A stretch of 64,000 bases of DNA from Frigoriglobus tundricola. GTDB lineage: Bacteria > Planctomycetota > Planctomycetia > Gemmatales > Gemmataceae. Where the stretch lies: positions 7,564,001-7,628,000 of the forward strand of contig NZ_CP053452.2 of the NCBI RefSeq assembly GCF_013128195.2, written 5' to 3'. The position numbers were made by a program, and so were the translations under genes. Shown in pieces: positions 36,709-46,108 of the stretch. Every line of letters starts with the position of its first letter. Positions within the stretch are counted from its first letter, which is position 1. The notes beneath the pieces were generated by a model. It saw only the letters and a program-made list of their open reading frames with translations, was not told where the DNA came from and made no database searches.

Positions 36709-37035
36709 GGGCCAGAGATTTCCGCCACCTGGTCGGGAGGCGAGCAGCCGCGATGAGCGTATTTCTCCCGTTCGTGGGATCGCTCGCACCATTCCAATAG
36801 GTGTCGCCGTTTTTGGCGGTGGGGATCGAGAGGCTCCCGGTGCCGAACTGGCGACGTGTGGCTGCCGCGGAAGTGTGCCAGTGCGTTCATCGTAGCGGCG
36901 CGTTCCCGCGGATCACGAAAATGTCGCCAGGATCGGATTCAGCAGAATGCGCTCTTGGGCATATGTCCGCCCACCGGACTTTCGCTTGAATTAATGTCAG
37001 ATTAAAATGGCATTACGTACCGGGCCATCGCGCCA
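36709..37035. other. Convergent intergenic region, no gene seen
   Basis: This region lies between the stops of DUF1552 and TetR. The right end is locally AT-rich and holds a weak inverted repeat (AATGTCA/TGGCATT, near 36994-37015). No ORF with coding character was found. Confidence 0.4.
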
Positions 37036-37644
37036 TCACCGGCTCGGTCCGACCCGGCCGCCGAGGAGGCCGATCGCCTGCTGGCCCATGCGTAGGATGA
37101 GAGCCGGCTCGTTGGCCGCCTTTGCCATGAGGACGACACCGTGGAGGTAAGCGAGCACGGTGTGCCCGGCCGTGTGGGGGTCACCCAGAGGTATGACCCG
37201 GGCCGCCATCAATTCTTCCATGATCGGGTTCAGAGTCATGATCCACCGGCGGGTGATACCGACCAGGCAGGCTCGGACCCGCTCGTCTGCGGCCGCTAGC
37301 TCCAGGGAGAGATTCCCATGCAGACAGCCGTACATGACGCCGGCCTCAGCCTGGTGGCACTCACCCATTGCCTGAGCCCCCTCGAAAATCTTCAGAAGTT
37401 TTCGCTCGGGTAGGTCCCGGCCCTCCGCCGCGGCCCGGAACACGTTCGCGACGCTGTCCCCGTAGCGCTCTAGGGCGGCGATGGCGACATCGATCTTGGC
37501 CTTAAAGAAGTGATAAAGGCTGCCCTTCTGCACGCCCGCCGTGTCGCAAATATCCTGGGTGCTGACGGCCGCGAAGCCGCGGGCGCAAAACAGCCTCAGC
37601 GCTGCTGCCACGATCAGTTCCCGGCTACCCCGTCCGGCCTCCAT
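37036..37644 (-). CDS. TetR-family repressor
   Basis: A 202-residue TetR/AcrR regulator. The DNA-binding domain spans ~5-55: LIVAAALRLFCARGFAAVSTQDICDTAGVQKGSLYHFFKAK. The ligand domain carries a CHQAEAG...YGCLHGNLSLEL segment with two Cys residues (in GECHQ and YGCLHG), placed much as in the NemR-like branch, which senses electrophiles and HOCl. Whether these Cys are the sensor is inference. The gene is divergent from the Met-rich lipoprotein/msrP unit, and two matching palindromes lie in the shared promoter region, the nearer one 14 bp upstream of its start. Autorepression together with repression of the msr genes is the likely mode. Confidence 0.88.
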   Translation of the reverse strand: MEAGRGSRELIVAAALRLFCARGFAAVSTQDICDTAGVQKGSLYHFFKAKIDVAIAALERYGDSVANVFRAAAEGRDLPERKLLKIFEGAQAMGECHQAEAGVMYGCLHGNLSLELAAADERVRACLVGITRRWIMTLNPIMEELMAARVIPLGDPHTAGHTVLAYLHGVVLMAKAANEPALILRMGQQAIGLLGGRVGPSR

Positions 37645-37657
37645 TCGCCTATCCCCC

Positions 37658-37714
37658 TTGACCGACCGGTCAAGTCTGACTACGTTTTATCATCAGTGTT
37701 GACCGAGCGGTCAA
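37658..37714. promoter_or_regulatory. Twin TetR operators over divergent promoters
   Basis: Two 16-bp sites, TTGACCG-AC-CGGTCAA (37658-37673) and TTGACCG-AG-CGGTCAA (37699-37714), share identical 7-bp arms and lie 41 bp apart. The form resembles known TetR-type operators such as that of RutR. TTGACC of site 1 plus 17 bp plus TACGTT (37681-37686) makes a plus-strand promoter. TTGACC of site 2 on the minus strand plus 17 bp plus GATAAA (37691-37686) makes the opposing one. Binding would block both. Confidence 0.75.
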
Positions 37715-37773
37715 ATCACTGCGGTCGCCCGTTCGGGCGGTACCGCCACCGTATTTTAGACCGGAGCCCCCAC

Positions 37774-38013
37774 ATGCGTTTCGCTTACCGCGCCTTCGCC
37801 CTCACCGCGATCCTGGCAGCGCCCCTCGTCGTCGGCTGCGGCGGCAGCGCGGCCACGACGGCCCCCAAGAAAGAAGACGACAAGATGAAAGGCGACGGGA
37901 TGATGAAGGGCGATGACAAGATGAAAGGCGACGGGATGATGAAGGGCGATGACAAGATGAAAGGCGACGGGATGATGAAGGGCGATGACAAGATGATGTC
38001 GACGAAAAAGTAA
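37774..38013 (+). CDS. Met-rich MXKDX-repeat lipoprotein (MrpX-like)
   Basis: A 79-residue lipoprotein. The leader is [21 protein letters not shown], with the acylated Cys at residue 22. The mature 58 residues hold 11 methionines, in three perfect copies of [12 protein letters not shown] plus DKMM. It belongs by pattern to the pentapeptide MXKDX proteins. In Azospira suillum a Met-rich periplasmic peptide (MrpX) works with the methionine sulfoxide reductase YedY1 as a hypochlorite sink, and the same neighbourhood is seen here. The likely role is to be oxidised in place of other envelope proteins and then repaired by MsrP. The function is inferred from context. Confidence 0.75.
37879..37986 (+). 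repeat. Three perfect 36-bp tandem repeats
   Basis: Units start at 37879, 37915 and 37951, each beginning GACAAGATGAAAGGCGACGG and identical at every base; a fourth begins at 37987 and then diverges. They encode the 12-residue Met-rich repeats. Perfect identity implies recent expansion, and the copy number may vary between strains. Confidence 0.9.
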
Positions 38014-38126
38014 GTCCGTCCCCAGCGGTGGACGCCGGGCGACGGAGGGCCGATGACATTGCAGGGTCCTCCAGATCGCACCCGGTCGGGTGCGGTCTGC
38101 GGTTTAGACTCTCAAAGGAACACGTC

Positions 38127-39110
38127 ATGTCCGGTCCGGGTCGCATCCCGTCAAGCGAGATCACGCCAGAAGCGTTGTACTTGAGCCGCCGCGCGTTCCT
38201 TCGGGCCGGGGTCGCGGCGGCCAGTGTGACGGTGACCGGGGTCGCTTACCGACGGCTCAACCGGGTCGGGTCGATGGGGATCGAGACGGATCAGATTCCG
38301 GGTCTGATACCCGCCCCGGAGGGGGCGGAGGGGTTGGCCAGCGGGTTCCGTGTGGACGAACGAGCGACACCATTATCGAGTGTCGGAAACTACAACAACT
38401 TCTACGAGTTCACGACCGACAAAGAGGGGGTAGCGGCTGCGGCCGCGGGGTTCGTCTCGCGCCCCTGGACCGTGTCCGTCGACGGGATGGTCCACAAGCC
38501 CCGGGTGTTCGCTCTGGACGAGTTGCTGGGGCTCGGCCCGCTCGAAGAGCGGGTGTACCGGATGCGGTGTGTCGAGGGCTGGTCCATGGTCATCCCGTGG
38601 GCCGGGCTCCCGCTGGCCCGGGTGCTCGCCCGGGTGGAGCCGATGGGCGGCGCGAGGTACGTCGCCTTCGAGACCCTCCGCGACCCCGCCCGCTTCCCGG
38701 GGCAACGGGGCACCGTCCTCGATTGGCCGTACGTCGAGGGGCTCCGTCTGGACGAGGCCATGCACCCGCTGACGATCCTGGCGGCCGGCCTGTACGGCCG
38801 CGATCTGCCGCCCCAGAACGGTGCCCCGCTCCGGCTGGTGGTGCCCTGGAAGTACGGGTTCAAGGGGATCAAGTCCGTCGTGAAGATCACCCTCGTGTCG
38901 GACGTGCCGCCGACAACATGGAACAAGTCTGCGCCCGGGGAGTACGGGTTCTTCTCGAACGTCAACCCGGCCGTCCCGCACCCCCGGTGGAGCCAAGCGA
39001 CCGAGCGGCGGATCGGCGAGGCCGGCCGCCGGCCGACGCTCCTGTTCAACGGGTACGCCGACCAGGTGGCGCACCTGTACGCGGGCATGGACCTGAAAGC
39101 CAACTACTGA
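38127..39110 (+). CDS. msrP: Protein-methionine-sulfoxide reductase catalytic subunit MsrP
   Basis: A 327-residue Tat-exported molybdoenzyme (twin-arginine SRRAFLRAG, residues 20-28). Cys148 in [15 protein letters not shown] is the molybdenum ligand. Other MsrP/YedY signatures are [36 protein letters not shown] and [17 protein letters not shown]. It repairs methionine sulfoxide in periplasmic proteins with electrons from MsrQ. ATG 38127 has AAGGA upstream; the longer in-frame extension has none of the family sequence. It sits between the Met-rich lipoprotein (114 bp upstream) and the MsrQ fusion (38 bp downstream). Confidence 0.93.
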
Positions 39111-39148
39111 GGTCGGGGCGCCGCACTTCCAGATTAAGGGCTGTATTC

Positions 39149-40843
39149 ATGCCGGTCGATCGGTTCACCCGGGCCGTCGTTCTACTGAATTGTACCGTGC
39201 CGGTCGCCCTCCTCGGGTGGGACGCCTGGTGCGGCCGACTGGGAGCCAATCCGGCCAACTTCGCCATCCGCACGACCGGGCTGCTGGCCCTCATCTTCCT
39301 CGTTCTGTCGCTGGCCGTCACCCCCGCCAGCCGGATCACCGGGTGGGGGTGGCTCGGGCCGTTTCGGCGGATGCTCGGGCTCTACGCCTTCTTTCACGCC
39401 GCCCTCCACTTCTTCCTGTACTTCTGGTTCGACCGTTCGGCGAGCGTGCGCGACACGGCGTCGGAAATCTGGTTGCGACCTTACCTCCTTGTGGGCGCGG
39501 TCGGGCTGGGGCTCATGGTCCCGCTCGCCGCGACCTCGACGGACCGCATGATCCGGCGACTGGGTCCGGCGCGGTGGAAGTCCCTGCACCGGTTGGCGTA
39601 CGTCGCAGCGGCGGCCGGGGCGCTGCACTTCTACCTGCTCGTGAAGGCCGACGTCACCCGACCGGCCGCGTTCGCCGCCGCCCTGGGGGTGCTCCTGGGC
39701 TACCGCCTCGTCGCGCACTACCTGCGGCTGCGGGCGGACGCTCGGAAGTACCGCACCGCCGGCCCGGCCGCCCCCTCCCGACCAACGTTCTGGGCCGGGA
39801 AGCTCCGGGTCGCCCGGGTGTTCGTTGAGACCCCTGAGGTTCGCACCTTCCGCCTGGCGTCGGGTACCGGCCCCGGGCTGCCGTTCGACTTCGCCCCGGG
39901 CCAGTATCTGAACCTGTCGCTCGTGATCGACGGGGTGCGGGTTCGGCGGTCGTACACGATCGCCTCGTCGCCCACGCGAGTGGGCTACTGCGAGATCACA
40001 GTCAAGCGGGAGGACAAGGGGCTGAGTTCGCGGCACCTGCACGACGCCGTTCGGGCCGGCGACTGGATCGACGTGCAGGCCCCGGCGGGCCGGTTCACGT
40101 TCACCGGGGCGGAGGCCGGCAGCGTGGTCCTGATCGCCGGGGGCGTCGGGATCACGCCCCTGATGTCCAAGGTCCGCTACCTCACGGACCTGAGTTGGCC
40201 GGGGGAAATCTACCTCATTTTTTCGGCGAAGACCGAGGACGAGATCATCTTCCGGAGCGAGCTCGATGCCCTGCGCGTGCGGCACCCGAACCTGCACGTC
40301 ACCGTCACCCTCACGCGGTCCGCTCGGCCGGACTGGGCCGGGGAGCGCGGGCGGGTCACCCCGGATCTGCTGACCCGCGTGGTTCCGGAGATCGCCTCGC
40401 GCCGGGTCCACGTCTGCGGCCCGACCGAGATGACCGATTCGACCCGGGAGATGCTGCTCGGCCTGGGGGTGCCCGCTGGGTCGGTCCACGTCGAATCGTT
40501 CACGTCGCCCAGTCGCTCGGCCGCCGGGCCCGTGGTCCAGGCGACTGCCGACCGCAGCCCGGTCCCGATCGAGGGGGCGGCCGACGCAACAGTGACCTTC
40601 GCCCGGTCGGGCGCGACGACGCTGGCCTCGACCAACCGCACGGTGCTGGAGGTCGCCGAGGCATCGGGCGTCGCCATCAATTACGACTGCCGGGCGGGCA
40701 TCTGTGGGCAGTGCAAGGTCAAGCTACTTTCGGGCCGAGTGGTCATGGACGCCGAAGACGCCCTCGACGCGGCGGACCGCGCGGCCGGCGTCATCTTGAG
40801 CTGCCAGGCCCGGTGCGTCGATCATGTCATTGTCGATGCTTGA
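39149..40843 (+). CDS. msrQ: MsrQ fused to FAD/NAD(P)H reductase and 2Fe-2S ferredoxin
   Basis: A 564-residue protein, against ~200 for ordinary MsrQ. Residues 1-195 form the six-helix heme membrane domain (His83, His87, His147 and His160 are heme-ligand candidates in FFHAALHFF and LHRLAYVAAAAGALHFY). Residues ~213-312 form an FAD-binding barrel with RSYTIASS (267-274). Residues ~322-450 bind NAD(P)H (GGVGITPLMS 331-340; VHVCGPTEM). Residues ~475-564 are a plant-type ferredoxin with Cys514, 519, 522 and 552. The domain order suggests electrons run from NAD(P)H through FAD and the 2Fe-2S centre to heme and on to MsrP. In E. coli a separate flavin reductase (Fre) does this job, so the fusion would make the system self-contained. 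Confidence 0.92.
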   Translation: MPVDRFTRAVVLLNCTVPVALLGWDAWCGRLGANPANFAIRTTGLLALIFLVLSLAVTPASRITGWGWLGPFRRMLGLYAFFHAALHFFLYFWFDRSASVRDTASEIWLRPYLLVGAVGLGLMVPLAATSTDRMIRRLGPARWKSLHRLAYVAAAAGALHFYLLVKADVTRPAAFAAALGVLLGYRLVAHYLRLRADARKYRTAGPAAPSRPTFWAGKLRVARVFVETPEVRTFRLASGTGPGLPFDFAPGQYLNLSLVIDGVRVRRSYTIASSPTRVGYCEITVKREDKGLSSRHLHDAVRAGDWIDVQAPAGRFTFTGAEAGSVVLIAGGVGITPLMSKVRYLTDLSWPGEIYLIFSAKTEDEIIFRSELDALRVRHPNLHVTVTLTRSARPDWAGERGRVTPDLLTRVVPEIASRRVHVCGPTEMTDSTREMLLGLGVPAGSVHVESFTSPSRSAAGPVVQATADRSPVPIEGAADATVTFARSGATTLASTNRTVLEVAEASGVAINYDCRAGICGQCKVKLLSGRVVMDAEDALDAADRAAGVILSCQARCVDHVIVDA

Positions 40844-41176
40844 CGGCTCGAAATTCCCTCGATGTGGACCCGCCGAAGATTACGGACCAGCGCGAGGGAA
40901 ACCGAACGGATCGTTTTCCCGCTAATACGCACCTACCGGCTGGGGGGCCACATCGGAGACCAACAGTTGTACGGTTTGAACAAAGACGTGCCCGGTACGC
41001 GCGTTGCTTATGCTGTGGCGTCGTTCTCATCTTGAAATTTGCCGCGCAGCAGGCGAAATGGCGTTCAGACTACGGACCGGGATGTGAACTCCCGCGCAAG
41101 GGGCCGCCCCTCAGCGCATCCGTTATCACGCTCAGGCCGAGCCGTGTGCCGTGCGAGGTCAAGGAGGATCGTCACC
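40844..41176 (+). other. Intergenic region, no gene seen
   Basis: 333 bp lie between the msrQ fusion and the BBP7 gene, which run in the same direction. AAGGAGG at its right edge (41161-41167) is the BBP7 ribosome binding site. No terminator hairpin or promoter stands out, and an in-frame extension of the BBP7 ORF through it lacks coding character. Confidence 0.4.
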
Positions 41177-42667
41177 ATGCGATACGCGCTTCCCGTTGCC
41201 GTTTCGTGCTTCATCGCCTGGGGGAGTGTCGTTCGGGCTCAAGAAGTGGTACCGCTGCCCCCGCCCGACCCGCTGCCGCCCGGGGTTCAAGCCACGCCGC
41301 CCCAGGTGAACATCCTTCAGAACCTCGTTCAGCAGCCGACTTCTCCCCCAGGGCCTAATGCTCCCGGCCAGCCCGGTCAGCCGTTCCAGCCCATTCTGCC
41401 GCCGAGTGCGGGGGGCAGCGGGCCGCCGCCGGGTTATTACGGCGCGCCGCCTCCAGGTTACAACGGCCCGCCGCCGGGTTATTACGGTCCGCCGCCCCCG
41501 GGGTACTACGGCCAACTGCCGCCGGGAATGGTGCCCCCGCCGCCGGGGTACGACGGCATGCCACCCGTCGTGTACCGGCGCCGGCCGATCGCGTACACGG
41601 GTGACCCCGCCAGTGACCCCAACCTCTGGATGACGTTTGACGCACTCGTGTGGTGGTCGAAGAACCAGCCGCTCTCGGTGCCGGTGGTGACCACCGGGCC
41701 GGGGTCTCAGGGGAGCAACGCGGGCGCGCTCGGCGCGCCGGGCACGACCTCGCTCAACCAGCCGCTCCGGTACGGCGGAACGGGAGGCATCTGGGTGGAC
41801 GTGGGCGGCTGGTTCGATGCGGGGCACCGGTTCGGGCTTGAGGGCGAGTTGTTCTCGCTCGGCCAACAGAGCGCCGGGTTCAGCGTGTATGACCGCTCCG
41901 GGACCGGCAGCTTCGTGGTCAACGAACCGGTCTCGGGTGTGCCGTTCTCGACCCAGGTGAGCGCCCCCGGCGTTCAGACCGGCGGGGTCGATGTGCACAC
42001 CACCAGTGAACTCTGGGGCGGCGGGTTCAACGGCCTGTTCAACGTGTTCCGCCGCGACGGCCTGACGGTCTCGCTCATGGGCGGCTTCCGCTACATCGAA
42101 CTGGAGGAGCACCTGGACGTCGTCGCCAACTCGGCGCTGTTCACGCAGACCACCTATACGGACAACTTGGGGAACACCCTGGCGACCGCGCCGGCGGGCT
42201 CGACGGTGACGGTCGTCGATCAGTTCGGCGTCCGGAACGAGTTCTACGGCGGGCAGATCGGGGTCAAGTTCCAATACATGATGGGCCGGTGGTCGTTCAG
42301 CGGCACGGAGACGCTCGCCATCGGGGCGACGCACGAGTCGGTGACGATCAACGGGGCGACGAACGTGTACCCCGTGAACAGCGCGCCGGTGTACCTGTCC
42401 GGGGGCAACTACGCGACGTCGCAGATCGGGCACTACGCGGTCAACCGGTTCGCGGTGAACCCGGGGGTGATGCTGAACCTCGGGTACCAGTTCACGCCCT
42501 TCATCCGCGGCACCATCGGGTACAACTTTCTGTACCTGAGCAACGTCATGCGGCCCGGGAACCAAATCGATAACACTTACGACGGAGTGATTCACCCCGT
42601 CGTGCCGATGAAGAGTACGTCGTACTGGAGCCAGGGGCTCCGGCTCGGGCTGCAAATCAGCTTCTGA
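41177..42667 (+). CDS. BBP7-type outer-membrane beta-barrel protein
   Basis: A 496-residue exported protein (signal RYALPVAVSCFIAWGSVVRAQ). A Pro/Gln-rich linker with PPPGYYG-type tandem repeats covers ~85-135. A C-terminal region of ~350 residues of alternating amphipathic strands follows, with the family opening LWMTFDALVWWSKNQPLSVPVVTTG, then GIWVDVGGWFDAGHRFGLEGELFSLG, GLTVSLMGGFRYIELEEHL, and it ends in an aromatic residue (LRLGLQISF). It matches the planctomycete BBP7 barrel family. The ATG has a perfect AAGGAGG. The role is an outer-membrane porin-like or structural barrel; cargo is unknown. Confidence 0.85.
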   Translation: MRYALPVAVSCFIAWGSVVRAQEVVPLPPPDPLPPGVQATPPQVNILQNLVQQPTSPPGPNAPGQPGQPFQPILPPSAGGSGPPPGYYGAPPPGYNGPPPGYYGPPPPGYYGQLPPGMVPPPPGYDGMPPVVYRRRPIAYTGDPASDPNLWMTFDALVWWSKNQPLSVPVVTTGPGSQGSNAGALGAPGTTSLNQPLRYGGTGGIWVDVGGWFDAGHRFGLEGELFSLGQQSAGFSVYDRSGTGSFVVNEPVSGVPFSTQVSAPGVQTGGVDVHTTSELWGGGFNGLFNVFRRDGLTVSLMGGFRYIELEEHLDVVANSALFTQTTYTDNLGNTLATAPAGSTVTVVDQFGVRNEFYGGQIGVKFQYMMGRWSFSGTETLAIGATHESVTINGATNVYPVNSAPVYLSGGNYATSQIGHYAVNRFAVNPGVMLNLGYQFTPFIRGTIGYNFLYLSNVMRPGNQIDNTYDGVIHPVVPMKSTSYWSQGLRLGLQISF

Positions 42668-42822
42668 CGCCCTCCCGGAGGAGTGGGAAACGCAATCGGT
42701 TTCACTGGTGCCGGCGTTGAATGGGTCGGAGCCGGACTGTTGTCGGCGAAGGTCCAGTTGACTGGCGACGACAACAGTTCGGCTCCAGACCGTCGCCCGC
42801 ACCAGAGGGAGATGGGGATCTC

Positions 42823-43665
42823 ATGAACCGCACACATCGGGTTTTCCGGTCGCTGCCGAAACTCGTGCTTACGGCGGTGGCGCTCGGTATCGGGACGAAC
42901 GAGGCCCTCGCGGTCGGGGGCGGTGGTCATGGTGGCGGTGGGCACGGTGGGGGGGCGGGACACGTCGGCGCCTTCCACGGGGGCTACGGCCACGGATACG
43001 GTTACGGCCACGGCCGCGGGTATTGGGGCGGTGGGTACTGGGGCGGCTACTGGGGGCCCTACGGTTACTGGGGCTACCCTTACGGTTTCGGGCTGGGGAT
43101 CGGGGTGGGTTACGGTTACGGCTACGGGTCCGGCTACGGTGGGTACAACTACCTCGGGTACCCTTACTACGGGAGCGGTTACGGCTACCCGTACTACGGC
43201 AGCCCGGCGAGCATTTACGGCGCGCCCAGCCCCGCGGCTGTGGACCCCTACTACGGCCACGTGTTCCCTTATGGTGTGGTCGGCTCCTCGACGACCTCGG
43301 CGCCGTCGTCCAGTCTCTCCGTGTTGCCGGGTGCGGGGCCGGCTCCCGCTCCGGGCGGCGTGCAGGGACCGCCGGTGGCGTCCGCCGATACCGAAGTGAC
43401 GCTGATCGTCCGCGTGCCGGCGAACGCGAAGGTCTGGGTGAACGGCGTGAAGACGACCCAGAACGGGACGCGGCGCGAGTTCACCTCCTCGGGACTTACC
43501 CCGGGCCGCAGCTACACGTTCCTCGTTCGCGCGCAGTGGGGTGAGTCGGACGGCAACGCCGTGGACAACGACCGGCGGATCACCGTTCAGGCCGGGGAGC
43601 GGCGGGCGATCGATTTCGGAGCAGCCGTGCCGGCCGTCGCGGTCCCGGCCATCGCCAACCCGTGA
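42823..43665 (+). CDS. Gly/Tyr-rich exported protein with TIGR03000 domain
   Basis: A 280-residue protein with signal peptide (VLTAVALGIGTNEALA). A Gly/His then Gly/Tyr/Trp-rich region follows (~30-140, repeats of GYGYG, YWGG, GYPYYGSG), then a Pro/Ser linker. The ~75-residue C-terminal TIGR03000 domain reads VTLIVRVPANAKVWVNGVKTTQNGTRREFTSSGLTPGRSYTF; that family is planctomycete-specific. ATG 42823 was chosen for the GGGGA upstream. Gly/Tyr repeats point to a surface or matrix protein. It follows BBP7 in the same direction and is probably also envelope-related. Confidence 0.85.
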   Translation: MNRTHRVFRSLPKLVLTAVALGIGTNEALAVGGGGHGGGGHGGGAGHVGAFHGGYGHGYGYGHGRGYWGGGYWGGYWGPYGYWGYPYGFGLGIGVGYGYGYGSGYGGYNYLGYPYYGSGYGYPYYGSPASIYGAPSPAAVDPYYGHVFPYGVVGSSTTSAPSSSLSVLPGAGPAPAPGGVQGPPVASADTEVTLIVRVPANAKVWVNGVKTTQNGTRREFTSSGLTPGRSYTFLVRAQWGESDGNAVDNDRRITVQAGERRAIDFGAAVPAVAVPAIANP

Positions 43666-43828: not shown

Positions 43829-46108
43829 TCAAAAGGTTAAACTGCGCCGCCCGCAGGTGGGCGCGCCATCGATTGTGAGATCCGCAGCACCCGCGTCCGG
43901 GGACAGGAACTCGATTTCGCCCGTAACCACGTCGTACATCGCACCGACGATCACGATCCGCCCTTCACGAACGAGGCCGTCAAGTGTCGGGCTCTGGTTG
44001 CGGAGTGCCGCGACCGACTGTAACGCGTTCCGCCGCGCCGCGCCGTCGATCAGCACGTCCTTCGCGGCCGATGGCAAGCTATCGAAGTCCGCACACGGGA
44101 GCGGGCCGATCGAATCGCGGAGGGCGTGAATGAGGTGGCCGAGGTGGGTGCAGCCGGTGGGAGCGGACGAGCACGTGAAGTTCACGGCCGCGGTGACGGC
44201 CCCGCACCGCGTGTGACCCATGACCAGGATCAGCTTCGCCCCGGCGACCGCGCAGCCGTATTCCACACTGCCGATCACCTCCCGGCTCGCAATGTTCCCG
44301 GCGATGCGGACGCCGAAGATGTCGCCCACCCCCAGGTCGAAGATCAGCTCCGCGGGGGTGCGGGAGTCGATGCAACTGACGACCACGGCGAGCGGGTGCT
44401 GGCCGCCTGCGGTGGCCCGCACCTGTCGCCCGAGGTTGCGGGTGAGCCGCCGACCGGTGAGGAACCGCTTGTGCCCGTCCCTGAGAACCTCGAGCACCTG
44501 CGCCGGGTCGAGCGCACTCTGGAGTTCGCGGGTGGCGTGCTCCTGGTACTGGGTCTGGTCCCGGAGCTGATACCGGCGGCGGAACCCGAGCAGGCTCACC
44601 TCGATGCCGCGGGCCGGCCCGGTTTGGTCGTTGAAGTCCCGGATCAGCGTGAGGACGTCCGGGTCGATGTAGTCGGTGTTCCGGGCGTCCAGAAGGACGT
44701 GATCGCCGCGGGGCACCTCGTCGAGAGCCCGTGCGAGTGCCGCTCGGTTGAGGAAGCTCACCTGTTCGGCCAGTTCGATGCGGACCACGTTCCCGCCGAG
44801 GTGCTTCTCGATGCTCCTCCGGAGCGGGCGCCGCACGTTGCTCCGCAGGATGAAGCCGACACTGACCGCCATTCCGACCAGGACCCCGACCAGGAGATCG
44901 GTCAGCACGATGGCGGCCACGGTGGCGGCGAACGGTAGGAACTGGGGGCGGCCCTCGTCCCACATCCGCCGGACGAGCGCCGGACGGGCCAGTTTCACCC
45001 CGGTCACCAACAGAACCGCTGCCAGGCACGAAAGCGGGACGAGATTGAGCCACGGTGCCAGGACGGCCACACTGGCGAGCAGCAGGGCGCCGTGGACGAC
45101 GGTCGCCCGCTTGGTCTGCGCGCCGGCGCCGATGTTGGCCGAACTGCGGACGATAACGGAGGAGACCGGCAGCCCGCCGATCAACCCGACCACCACGTTA
45201 CCGACCCCCTGCGCGATCAGCTCCCGGTTCGGGGGCGAGGTTCGTTGTTGCGGATCGATCTTGTCCACCGCTCCGAGGTTCATGAGCGTTTCGAGGGAGG
45301 CGACCGCCGCGAGGGTGAACGCCGCCGTGTACACCGCCGGGGCGGCCCACAGGGAGAAGTCGGGCACGCGGAGGAGGTCCCAGAACCCGCCCACACCGTC
45401 CGGCACCGGCATTTGCACGCGGTGGCTCGCCTCGATCGTCCAGGCGCCCCCCAGCTCGCGAAACACCAGCGACATGCCGAGCCCGAGCAGCACGACCACT
45501 AGAGGCGCCGGGACGGGCGACTCTCTCAACCGCCGCGTGCGGTCCCAGGCCACCAGTACCGCGACCGAGACGAGGCCGATCAGGGCCGCGCCGAGGTCGA
45601 GGTCGCCGACCGTGGCGACCAACCCGGAGAACGTGTTCTCGCGGTCGGACTGCTCGAACGCCATATCGCCCTCCGGGTCGGCGTCGTGCCCCAGGACGTG
45701 AGGGATCTGCTTGAGGACGAGGATGATGCCCACGGCGGCCAGCAGCCCCTTGACCACGGCGGACGGAAAGAACCCGGCGAGGAACCCGGCGCGGGCGAGC
45801 CCGAACGCGATCTGAATCATGCCGGCGAGGACGACCGCCAGGAGGAACGCTTCAAACGAACCGAGGACGGCGATCTGGGCGACGATGACGGCGGTGAGTC
45901 CGGGGGAGGGGCCGCTGACGCTGGTGTGCGACCCGCTGAGGAGCCCCACGACGGCACCGCCGATGACGCCGGACAGGAGGCCCGAGACGAGCGGGGCGTT
46001 GGACGCCAGCGCCACCCCGAGACACAGTGGCAGCGCCACGAGGAACACGACCGTTCCGGCCGCCAGGTCGCGGAACAGGGGCGGGGAGAATAATGCGGTC
46101 CGAGGCAT
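43829..46108 (-). CDS. SulP-family transporter fused to beta-carbonic anhydrase
   Basis: A 759-residue fusion. Residues ~10-425 are the SulP anion-transporter membrane domain (FLVALPLCLGVALASNAP; SGSHTSVSGPSPGLTAVIVAQ; GLPVSSVIVRSSANIGAGAQTKRATVVHG). Residues ~430-525 form a STAS domain. Residues ~540-759 form a beta-class carbonic anhydrase with zinc ligands Cys579, His632 and Cys635 and the Asp581/Arg583 dyad (VSCIDSRTPAEL, GHTRCGAV). Such fusions are thought to move bicarbonate while interconverting it with CO2. All catalytic residues are present. It is a single gene with no linked partner. Confidence 0.93.
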   Translation of the reverse strand: MPRTALFSPPLFRDLAAGTVVFLVALPLCLGVALASNAPLVSGLLSGVIGGAVVGLLSGSHTSVSGPSPGLTAVIVAQIAVLGSFEAFLLAVVLAGMIQIAFGLARAGFLAGFFPSAVVKGLLAAVGIILVLKQIPHVLGHDADPEGDMAFEQSDRENTFSGLVATVGDLDLGAALIGLVSVAVLVAWDRTRRLRESPVPAPLVVVLLGLGMSLVFRELGGAWTIEASHRVQMPVPDGVGGFWDLLRVPDFSLWAAPAVYTAAFTLAAVASLETLMNLGAVDKIDPQQRTSPPNRELIAQGVGNVVVGLIGGLPVSSVIVRSSANIGAGAQTKRATVVHGALLLASVAVLAPWLNLVPLSCLAAVLLVTGVKLARPALVRRMWDEGRPQFLPFAATVAAIVLTDLLVGVLVGMAVSVGFILRSNVRRPLRRSIEKHLGGNVVRIELAEQVSFLNRAALARALDEVPRGDHVLLDARNTDYIDPDVLTLIRDFNDQTGPARGIEVSLLGFRRRYQLRDQTQYQEHATRELQSALDPAQVLEVLRDGHKRFLTGRRLTRNLGRQVRATAGGQHPLAVVVSCIDSRTPAELIFDLGVGDIFGVRIAGNIASREVIGSVEYGCAVAGAKLILVMGHTRCGAVTAAVNFTCSSAPTGCTHLGHLIHALRDSIGPLPCADFDSLPSAAKDVLIDGAARRNALQSVAALRNQSPTLDGLVREGRIVIVGAMYDVVTGEIEFLSPDAGAADLTIDGAPTCGRRSLTF

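Follow-up and report, generated by a model that had tools for sequence, protein, structure and literature searches.

A 64,000-nucleotide stretch of the genome of the planctomycete Frigoriglobus tundricola (NZ_CP053452.2, positions 7,564,001 to 7,628,000; hereafter the window) encodes a 564-residue protein in which MsrQ is joined, within one chain, to a flavin reductase and a 2Fe-2S ferredoxin, just behind the gene of the methionine sulfoxide reductase MsrP. We regard it as likely that this fusion is a self-sufficient MsrQ, which would carry electrons from NAD(P)H through flavin adenine dinucleotide (FAD), the 2Fe-2S cluster and the MsrQ hemes to MsrP, so that oxidised methionines are repaired. 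The features on which this proposal is built are the following, with positions counted from the first letter of the window:

38127..39110, + strand: msrP, 327 residues, with a twin-arginine-like start, SRRAFLRAG (NF003767, 446.7 bits, cut-off 207)
39149..40843, + strand: MsrQ-reductase-ferredoxin fusion gene, 564 residues (open frame, domains, homologous fusions)
39149..39748, + strand: six-helix domain of MsrQ, a ferric reductase of YedZ type, residues 1-200 (NF003831, AlphaFold2 helices, Foldseek)
39365..39367, + strand: codon of R73, which takes the position of the first canonical heme His in NOX/FRE (Arg in all 53 MsrQ rows)
39407..39409, + strand: codon of H87, presumed heme ligand on the periplasm side (His in all 53 MsrQ rows)
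39587..39589, + strand: codon of H147, presumed heme ligand on the cytosol side (His in all 53 MsrQ rows)
39626..39628, + strand: codon of H160, presumed heme ligand on the periplasm side (His in all 53 MsrQ rows)
39824..40099, + strand: FAD-binding domain, residues 226-317 (FAD_binding_6, PF00970, 57.4 bits, cut-off 21.1)
40130..40447, + strand: NAD(P)-binding domain, residues 328-433 (NAD_binding_1, PF00175, 68.2 bits, cut-off 22)
40601..40813, + strand: 2Fe-2S ferredoxin domain, residues 485-555, with Cys 514/519/522/552 (Fer2, PF00111, 54.9 bits, cut-off 21)

The single 564-residue frame announced by the original prediction is indeed read without a stop on the forward strand, from 39149 to 40843. 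A list of the longest open reading frames puts its start upstream, at 38567, and homologues align from M1. The opposite strand also holds an open frame, of 435 residues (39182-40489); shadow frames of this kind are common in GC-rich genes. The membrane half reaches 152.7 bits with the NCBIfam MsrQ model NF003831 (cut-off 130) over residues 7-196, and the Pfam domain Ferric_reduct is above its cut-off at residues 43-157. The reductase half, roughly residues 214-564, contains FAD_binding_6, NAD_binding_1 and Fer2 with its four Cys, in that order, and the FAD, NAD(P)H and ferredoxin-centre motifs proposed earlier were all recovered: RSYTIASS at residues 267-274, GGVGITPLMS at 331-340, and C514-C519-C522...C552. 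The NAD model of the NOX/FRE type, PF08030, stays under its cut-off (20.6 against 22.2 bits), and PF00175 describes the domain better, at 68.2 bits. The named NCBIfam equivalogs GbcB (219 of the 500 bits needed), PaaE (195.8 of 420.8) and Hcr (178.1 of 383) are likewise under their cut-offs. In its fold the reductase half resembles phthalate dioxygenase reductase (2pia; Z 25.2, root-mean-square deviation 4.1, 308 residues), whose electron path presumably runs from NADH through flavin to the 2Fe-2S cluster. In the VIA-align analysis at least one fifth of the rows cover only residues 207-454, and the rest of the protein is barely tested. No Rfam family matches positions 36800-41300 at gathering scores.

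The six-helix heme domain of the original prediction is borne out by the MsrQ model, with a correction to its paired His: the presumed heme residues are three His and one Arg. In an alignment of 17 fused and 36 separate MsrQ rows, R73, H87, H147 and H160 are invariant, and H83 is not conserved. According to Zhang et al. 2013 (PMC3591440; this and the other papers are cited for the portions of them available to us), the YedZ/STEAP group is recognised by an Arg where the first canonical His would stand, and the fusion bears this sign, with three further His. Membership in the NOX and long-form ferric reductases was therefore rejected because of the Arg at the first His position (R73 is not a fourth His) and of the type of the NAD domain, with PF08030 under its cut-off. 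Foldseek places the MsrQ domain closest to STEAP2/1/4 (expectation values, E, from 5e-3 to 3e-2), with the membrane domain of CsNOX5 at rank 8 (E 0.16); a sequence search of the membrane half against the PDB gave no match at E up to 1. As for the other end of the protein, the four ferredoxin Cys are present in all 16 fused rows that reach the C-terminus, one of the 17 being cut before it, and this conservation argues that the ferredoxin is on the electron path.

The positive charges of the loops, 11 inside and 6 outside, fit an arrangement with both ends in. Together with AlphaFold2 models of modest confidence, built on alignments of 8 rows (mean predicted local distance difference test 68, predicted template-modelling scores 0.49 and 0.53), they suggest that both termini are cytosolic, with R73/H147 towards the cytosol and H87/H160 towards the periplasm. 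At this confidence the models do not discriminate between docking of FAD and docking of the cluster.

The position behind msrP is just as first described, 38 bp separating the msrP stop at 39110 from the fusion start at 39149, and it is maintained in other genomes. In a first set of homologous loci, eleven besides the window are fused; ten have MsrP upstream and the remaining one, L008, begins inside the gene. Among the 38 loci that were read, 35 are fused without an inner stop, and msrP precedes the fusion on the same strand in 33 of these 35, the two others (L181 and L008) being cut by contig ends. The gap, taken between alignment ends, is at most 192 bp in 31 of the 33 loci, the exceptions being L185 (369 bp) and L180 (905 bp). 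Fer2 is missing from only two of the 35 (L071 and L199), both where the contig ends.

The four-domain order was sought in other genomes, as the original prediction had proposed, and it recurs. Seven loci, in five Planctomycetota and two Myxococcota records, matched the greater part of the protein in a scan of public contigs. MsrQ is above cut-off in 10 of 391 genomes of the window's phylum; nine of them have the reductase in the same frame, eight with the ferredoxin and one cut by a contig end, and the tenth, G432, is unfused. The class, represented by 297 genomes, contains the fusion in at least 28: 25 as single matches, of which that of G032 stops at residue 440 where its contig ends, and three in two pieces of one frame (G436, G1282 and G1378), the single frame having been confirmed at loci L151, L196 and L199. 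With four candidates scored per genome, the class matches listed also include unfused MsrQs in G432, G1269 and G1296, plus a second copy in G1365, that is, 28 genomes with the fusion versus 3 with MsrQ only. The unfused state of G432, G1269 and G1296 was confirmed at their loci L149, L197 and L198, which have MsrQ with msrP, and the sole other match to the fusion in G432 is 26% identical. Locus counts are not species counts, and some public loci may repeat genomes already in the set. An assembly or annotation artefact that joined two genes has next to no chance of being the explanation, and the sequencing error once raised as an objection is excluded, since at least 28 class members, several of them assembled in one to three contigs, show the same order, as do the two Myxococcota records.

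The phylum of the Myxococcales record G491, itself fused (locus L102), has MsrQ above cut-off in 50 of 282 genomes, and no reductase was found at the 30 MsrQ loci checked or at three more with long frames, the other 16 MsrQ genomes being judged only by frames of fewer than 400 residues. Among the matches listed for 398 genomes of Pseudomonadota (the phylum of Motiliproteus), with three candidates scored in each, none spans MsrQ and the reductase. The nearest full-length relative of the fusion, 70% identical, comes from G1208, a genome of another family of the class, which is closer than those of the same family (G019 and G1283, 62%) and on that account hints at horizontal transfer.

Phylogenetic trees, which exclude the fusions from the 297-genome class scan, were built for each of the two halves. 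In the MsrQ tree, a branch with 100/99 support splits 17 fused rows and the unfused row of G432 from 35 separate rows; because the latter genome sits on the fused side, it looks like a case of reductase loss. In the reductase tree, from which L071 (cut by its contig) is also excluded, a branch with 99/97 support unites the fused rows with reductases that are built differently. Because the latter are placed, with weak support, among the fused ones, 3 changes are required for the 16 fused rows, and the tree does not bear out a single origin of the reductase half.

What donates electrons to MsrQ is a matter of dispute. The original prediction started from the premise that E. coli MsrQ is fed by Fre, which is indeed stated in PMC11031084 and PMC8228183, but PMC11564096 and PMC8315932 name the quinone pool instead. 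A flow from flavin to hemes has been described for NOX and for MsrQ with Fre (PMC11031084). The genome of F. tundricola has one Ferric_reduct domain and two FAD_binding_6 proteins. One of the two is the fusion; the other, of 273 residues, comes closest in NCBIfam to dihydroorotate dehydrogenase electron-transfer subunits, under their cut-offs, and scores 20 of 230 bits with the Fre model. The FAD_binding_6 search thus found no Fre-like protein in this genome, which is 95% complete, flavin reductases of other folds not having been sought. The proposal of the original prediction that a single chain could bring electrons from NAD(P)H to MsrP therefore gains support from the MsrQ signature, from the complete reductase and cluster motifs, which are preserved in relatives, from the presence of msrP upstream wherever the contig reaches, and from this negative search.

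A likely client of the repair system is encoded before msrP, and a regulator gene diverges from it:

37774..38013, + strand: Met-rich lipoprotein gene, 79 residues, with a lipobox-like LVVGC, upstream of msrP
37879..37996, + strand: 36-bp tandem repeat, 3.3 copies with 100% match, encoding the Met-rich part (repeat search)
37036..37644, - strand: divergent TetR-family regulator (open frame, structure-library relatives)
37658..37673, no strand: palindrome TTGACCGACCGGTCAA, probable operator (0 expected in shuffles)
37699..37714, no strand: palindrome TTGACCGAGCGGTCAA, probable operator (palindrome search)

The lipoprotein consists of 15% Met overall and of 19% after the lipobox, which predicts its export, and it is probably a sacrificial methionine donor. 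It shares the trait of MrpX and BcrX, that is, a Met-rich repeat protein with a predicted export signal encoded together with msrPQ. The protein, short and repetitive, matches no NCBIfam family at E up to 0.01. In 14 of 31 fused loci msrP is likewise preceded, on its own strand, by a gene for a similar Met-rich protein; the 31 loci include L181, with no upstream DNA, and exclude G319 (L041/L076), which has a Met-rich lipoprotein too. The lipobox expression is matched by 11 of these 14 proteins, the others being those of L180, L184 and L189. A joint search for Met-richness and lipobox in a non-random sample of 162 loci (757,735 bases) gave 10 matches, all of them in fused loci, and the same search without the lipobox demand added three copper-type loci (L137, L159 and L160). 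A promoter scan gave two weak matches, both within the Met-rich repeat.

The TetR gene faces two perfect palindromes (TTGACCGANCGGTCAA), and its place in the system formed by msrP and the fusion is a guess from position; as a part of the operon picture it is suggestive. The best solved relative of its product is 3bru (E 6.3e-16), followed by 3qbm and 9b7y. NemR was rejected as the closest relative, since its structure 4yze comes only fourth (2.7e-9) and the best NCBIfam models are AcuR and CurR, both under their cut-offs. C107 and K175 of the regulator align with Cys106 and Lys175 of NemR, which constitute a hypochlorite switch (PMC7464077); 3bru also has Cys and Lys there, so that these residues are a wider trait and no proof of such a switch. 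Conserved TetR control was rejected too, since none of the other 33 loci, some of them with short flanks, yielded a homologue at E up to 1e-4.

With these elements a working model can be drawn, of which we infer the cofactors, the topology, the electron steps, the client, the inducer and the choice between NADH and NADPH. The cytosolic, C-terminal reductase would take a hydride from NAD(P)H to FAD, and the 2Fe-2S cluster would hand single electrons to the cytosol-side heme site at R73/H147. From there electrons would pass to the periplasm-side heme at H87/H160, then to the molybdenum centre of MsrP, where methionine sulfoxide would be reduced. In F. tundricola the main client could well be the Met-rich lipoprotein, and in that case the operon would be a hypochlorite sponge that NAD(P)H recharges; the divergent TetR-type repressor may switch the operon on. 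We put forward this broader picture tentatively, at somewhat less than even chances: a membrane-tethered Met-rich lipoprotein would be oxidised instead of other proteins and recharged by MsrP through a one-chain donor with flavin, cluster and heme, unlike NOX and free of quinones and Fre.

Other explanations share part of this evidence. MsrQ could still be fed by quinones, as stated for the E. coli protein (PMC11564096 and PMC8315932), with the reductase as a second, conditional entry for NAD(P)H; unfused close relatives (L078/L149, L197 and L198) favour such a scheme, but the fusion is the commoner form in the class, at least 28 genomes against 3 with MsrQ only among the matches listed, and we find it unlikely. 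We give little credence to a short cut as in NOX, in which FAD would reduce the heme directly and the ferredoxin would serve another cytosolic partner or be a leftover. The linker between the last helix and the FAD domain is short in the fusion too, which would suit this route; against it, the ferredoxin Cys are kept in every fused row that extends to the C-terminus (16 of 16), Fer2 is lost only at the contig ends of L071 and L199 among the 35 fused loci, and the reductase is built from FAD_binding_6, NAD_binding_1 and Fer2, with the NOX/FRE model for NAD under cut-off. Very unlikely, finally, is a protein that acts mainly as a transmembrane oxidase or metal reductase (superoxide, ferric or cupric) and not as the donor of MsrP: the superfamily is common to NOX, FRE and STEAP, and two of the three plasmids examined have copper or metal genes next to sister reductase modules, but msrP is upstream in all fused loci save the two that are cut (33 of 35), the MsrQ model is above its cut-off, and the Arg at the first His position is the YedZ/STEAP sign (PMC3591440).

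Several observations nevertheless weigh against a self-sufficient MsrQ, or against parts of the model. G432, G1269 and G1296 have an unfused MsrQ and msrP with no reductase alongside, from which it follows that this type of MsrQ can manage without one. The AlphaFold2 models, of modest confidence, do not show whether the ferredoxin or FAD faces the heme, and the absence of Fre is no proof, given the reach of that search and the completeness of the genome. In L180 (genome G1228) an opposite-strand frame, which we take to be a transposase, stands between msrP and the fusion, 905 bp apart. The Met-rich gene is unseen in 17 of the 31 fused loci, some with little upstream DNA, and the TetR gene with its palindromes was found in the window only, among the 33 other loci compared. 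E. coli MsrQ is associated with flavin mononucleotide (FMN). Brucella MsrQ is likewise listed with FMN (PMC9045290). The absence from close relatives that the original prediction had held to count against it is true of the genus, where none of 18 genomes has the fusion; but none has a strong MsrQ match either (two have weak ones, of about 24-26 bits), so that the gene is patchy and not mis-joined.

The reductase half has a wider family of its own. Its nearest relatives, 42-51% identical, are found in loci L024-L026, L043-L046 and L135-L140 and in the plasmid loci L160 and L161, where the reductase is C-terminal to an apparent signal peptide, a region rich in His, Met and Gly, and a single membrane helix. 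In L160 it is accompanied by a four-helix copper-binding protein and a heavy-metal regulator, and in L161 by a multicopper oxidase, CopB and a Spy-like chaperone; these plasmid-type relatives are perhaps Met-rich periplasmic proteins with a reductase of their own. The same reductase-ferredoxin type is fused behind another domain, presumably FHA, in other genomes of the phylum (L047-L050), and behind a domain that we take to be MOSC in Motiliproteus and another genome (L009 and L143). A same-genus genome without the fusion (G008, L035) has a ferric-reductase-type membrane domain followed by another domain, to all appearance a Rieske one. Further along the window lie a frame with a long Gly/Tyr/His-rich stretch (42721-43665, +) and a 759-residue frame (43829-46108, -), in which a transporter of SulP type seems to be fused to a beta carbonic anhydrase.

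The value of the fusion is that it bears on the disputed donor of MsrQ, either the quinone pool or a cytosolic flavin reductase. That at least 28 genomes of the class and two Myxococcota records have kept it, with msrP where the contig reaches, provides evolutionary evidence for the NAD(P)H route, and a one-chain protein is an object on which the electron path can be measured. No description of an MsrQ-reductase-ferredoxin fusion, or of one beside msrP, was found in the literature, most subscription journals lying outside the search, and none is given in the available part of the main text of PMC2448597, which treats YedZ.

Related systems are nonetheless known for each part of the protein. 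Its order of FAD, NAD and 2Fe-2S domains, over residues ~214-564, is that of the phthalate dioxygenase reductase/GbcB/PaaE/Hcr type, although the fusion scores under the cut-offs of the GbcB, PaaE and Hcr models. Those reductases are soluble partners of other enzymes. Fusions of YedZ are named in the title of a 2004 paper by von Rozycki et al. Fre, for its part, is not known to have a ferredoxin domain. The fusion is like the E. coli MsrPQ (YedYZ) system with Fre in belonging to the same curated MsrQ family, in adjoining msrP and in using a donor of the FNR superfamily; it differs in that Fre is a separate protein (PMC8228183), whereas here the reductase is fused, comes from another FNR branch and has a 2Fe-2S domain. 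Bacterial NOX (SpNOX) and the long forms of FRE also unite a ferric-reductase membrane domain and an FNR-type domain in one chain, but they have four His (PMC3591440), in contrast to the Arg and three His, the Fer2 domain and the adjoining msrP described here; if the proposed path is true, electrons passing from flavin to heme by way of a 2Fe-2S cluster would set the fusion apart from the NADPH oxidases in its wiring. The MsrQ-like proteins of flavinylation clusters combine PF01794 and PF00175 in one chain, in 1437 gene clusters, typically with apbE and a gene for an FMN-binding protein, and the available text on them mentions neither Fer2 nor msrP (PMC8238504). Architecture M8 of Zhang et al. 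2013 is a ferric-reductase-domain protein with Fer2, compared here by its figure legend (PMC3591440). Related fusions are thus already in print, and MsrQ-reductase-ferredoxin beside msrP is a variant of them. A Met-rich peptide gene together with those of MsrP and MsrQ is likewise known from the Brucella operon bcrXQP, which is induced by hypochlorous acid, and from yedYZ-mrpX of Azospira suillum, a case cited in the same paper (PMC8315932). BcrXQP is under the control of an ECF sigma factor, whereas in F. tundricola the Met-rich protein bears a lipobox, the neighbour is of TetR type and MsrQ is fused; the adjoining Met-rich lipoprotein would extend the idea of sponge and repair to these bacteria.
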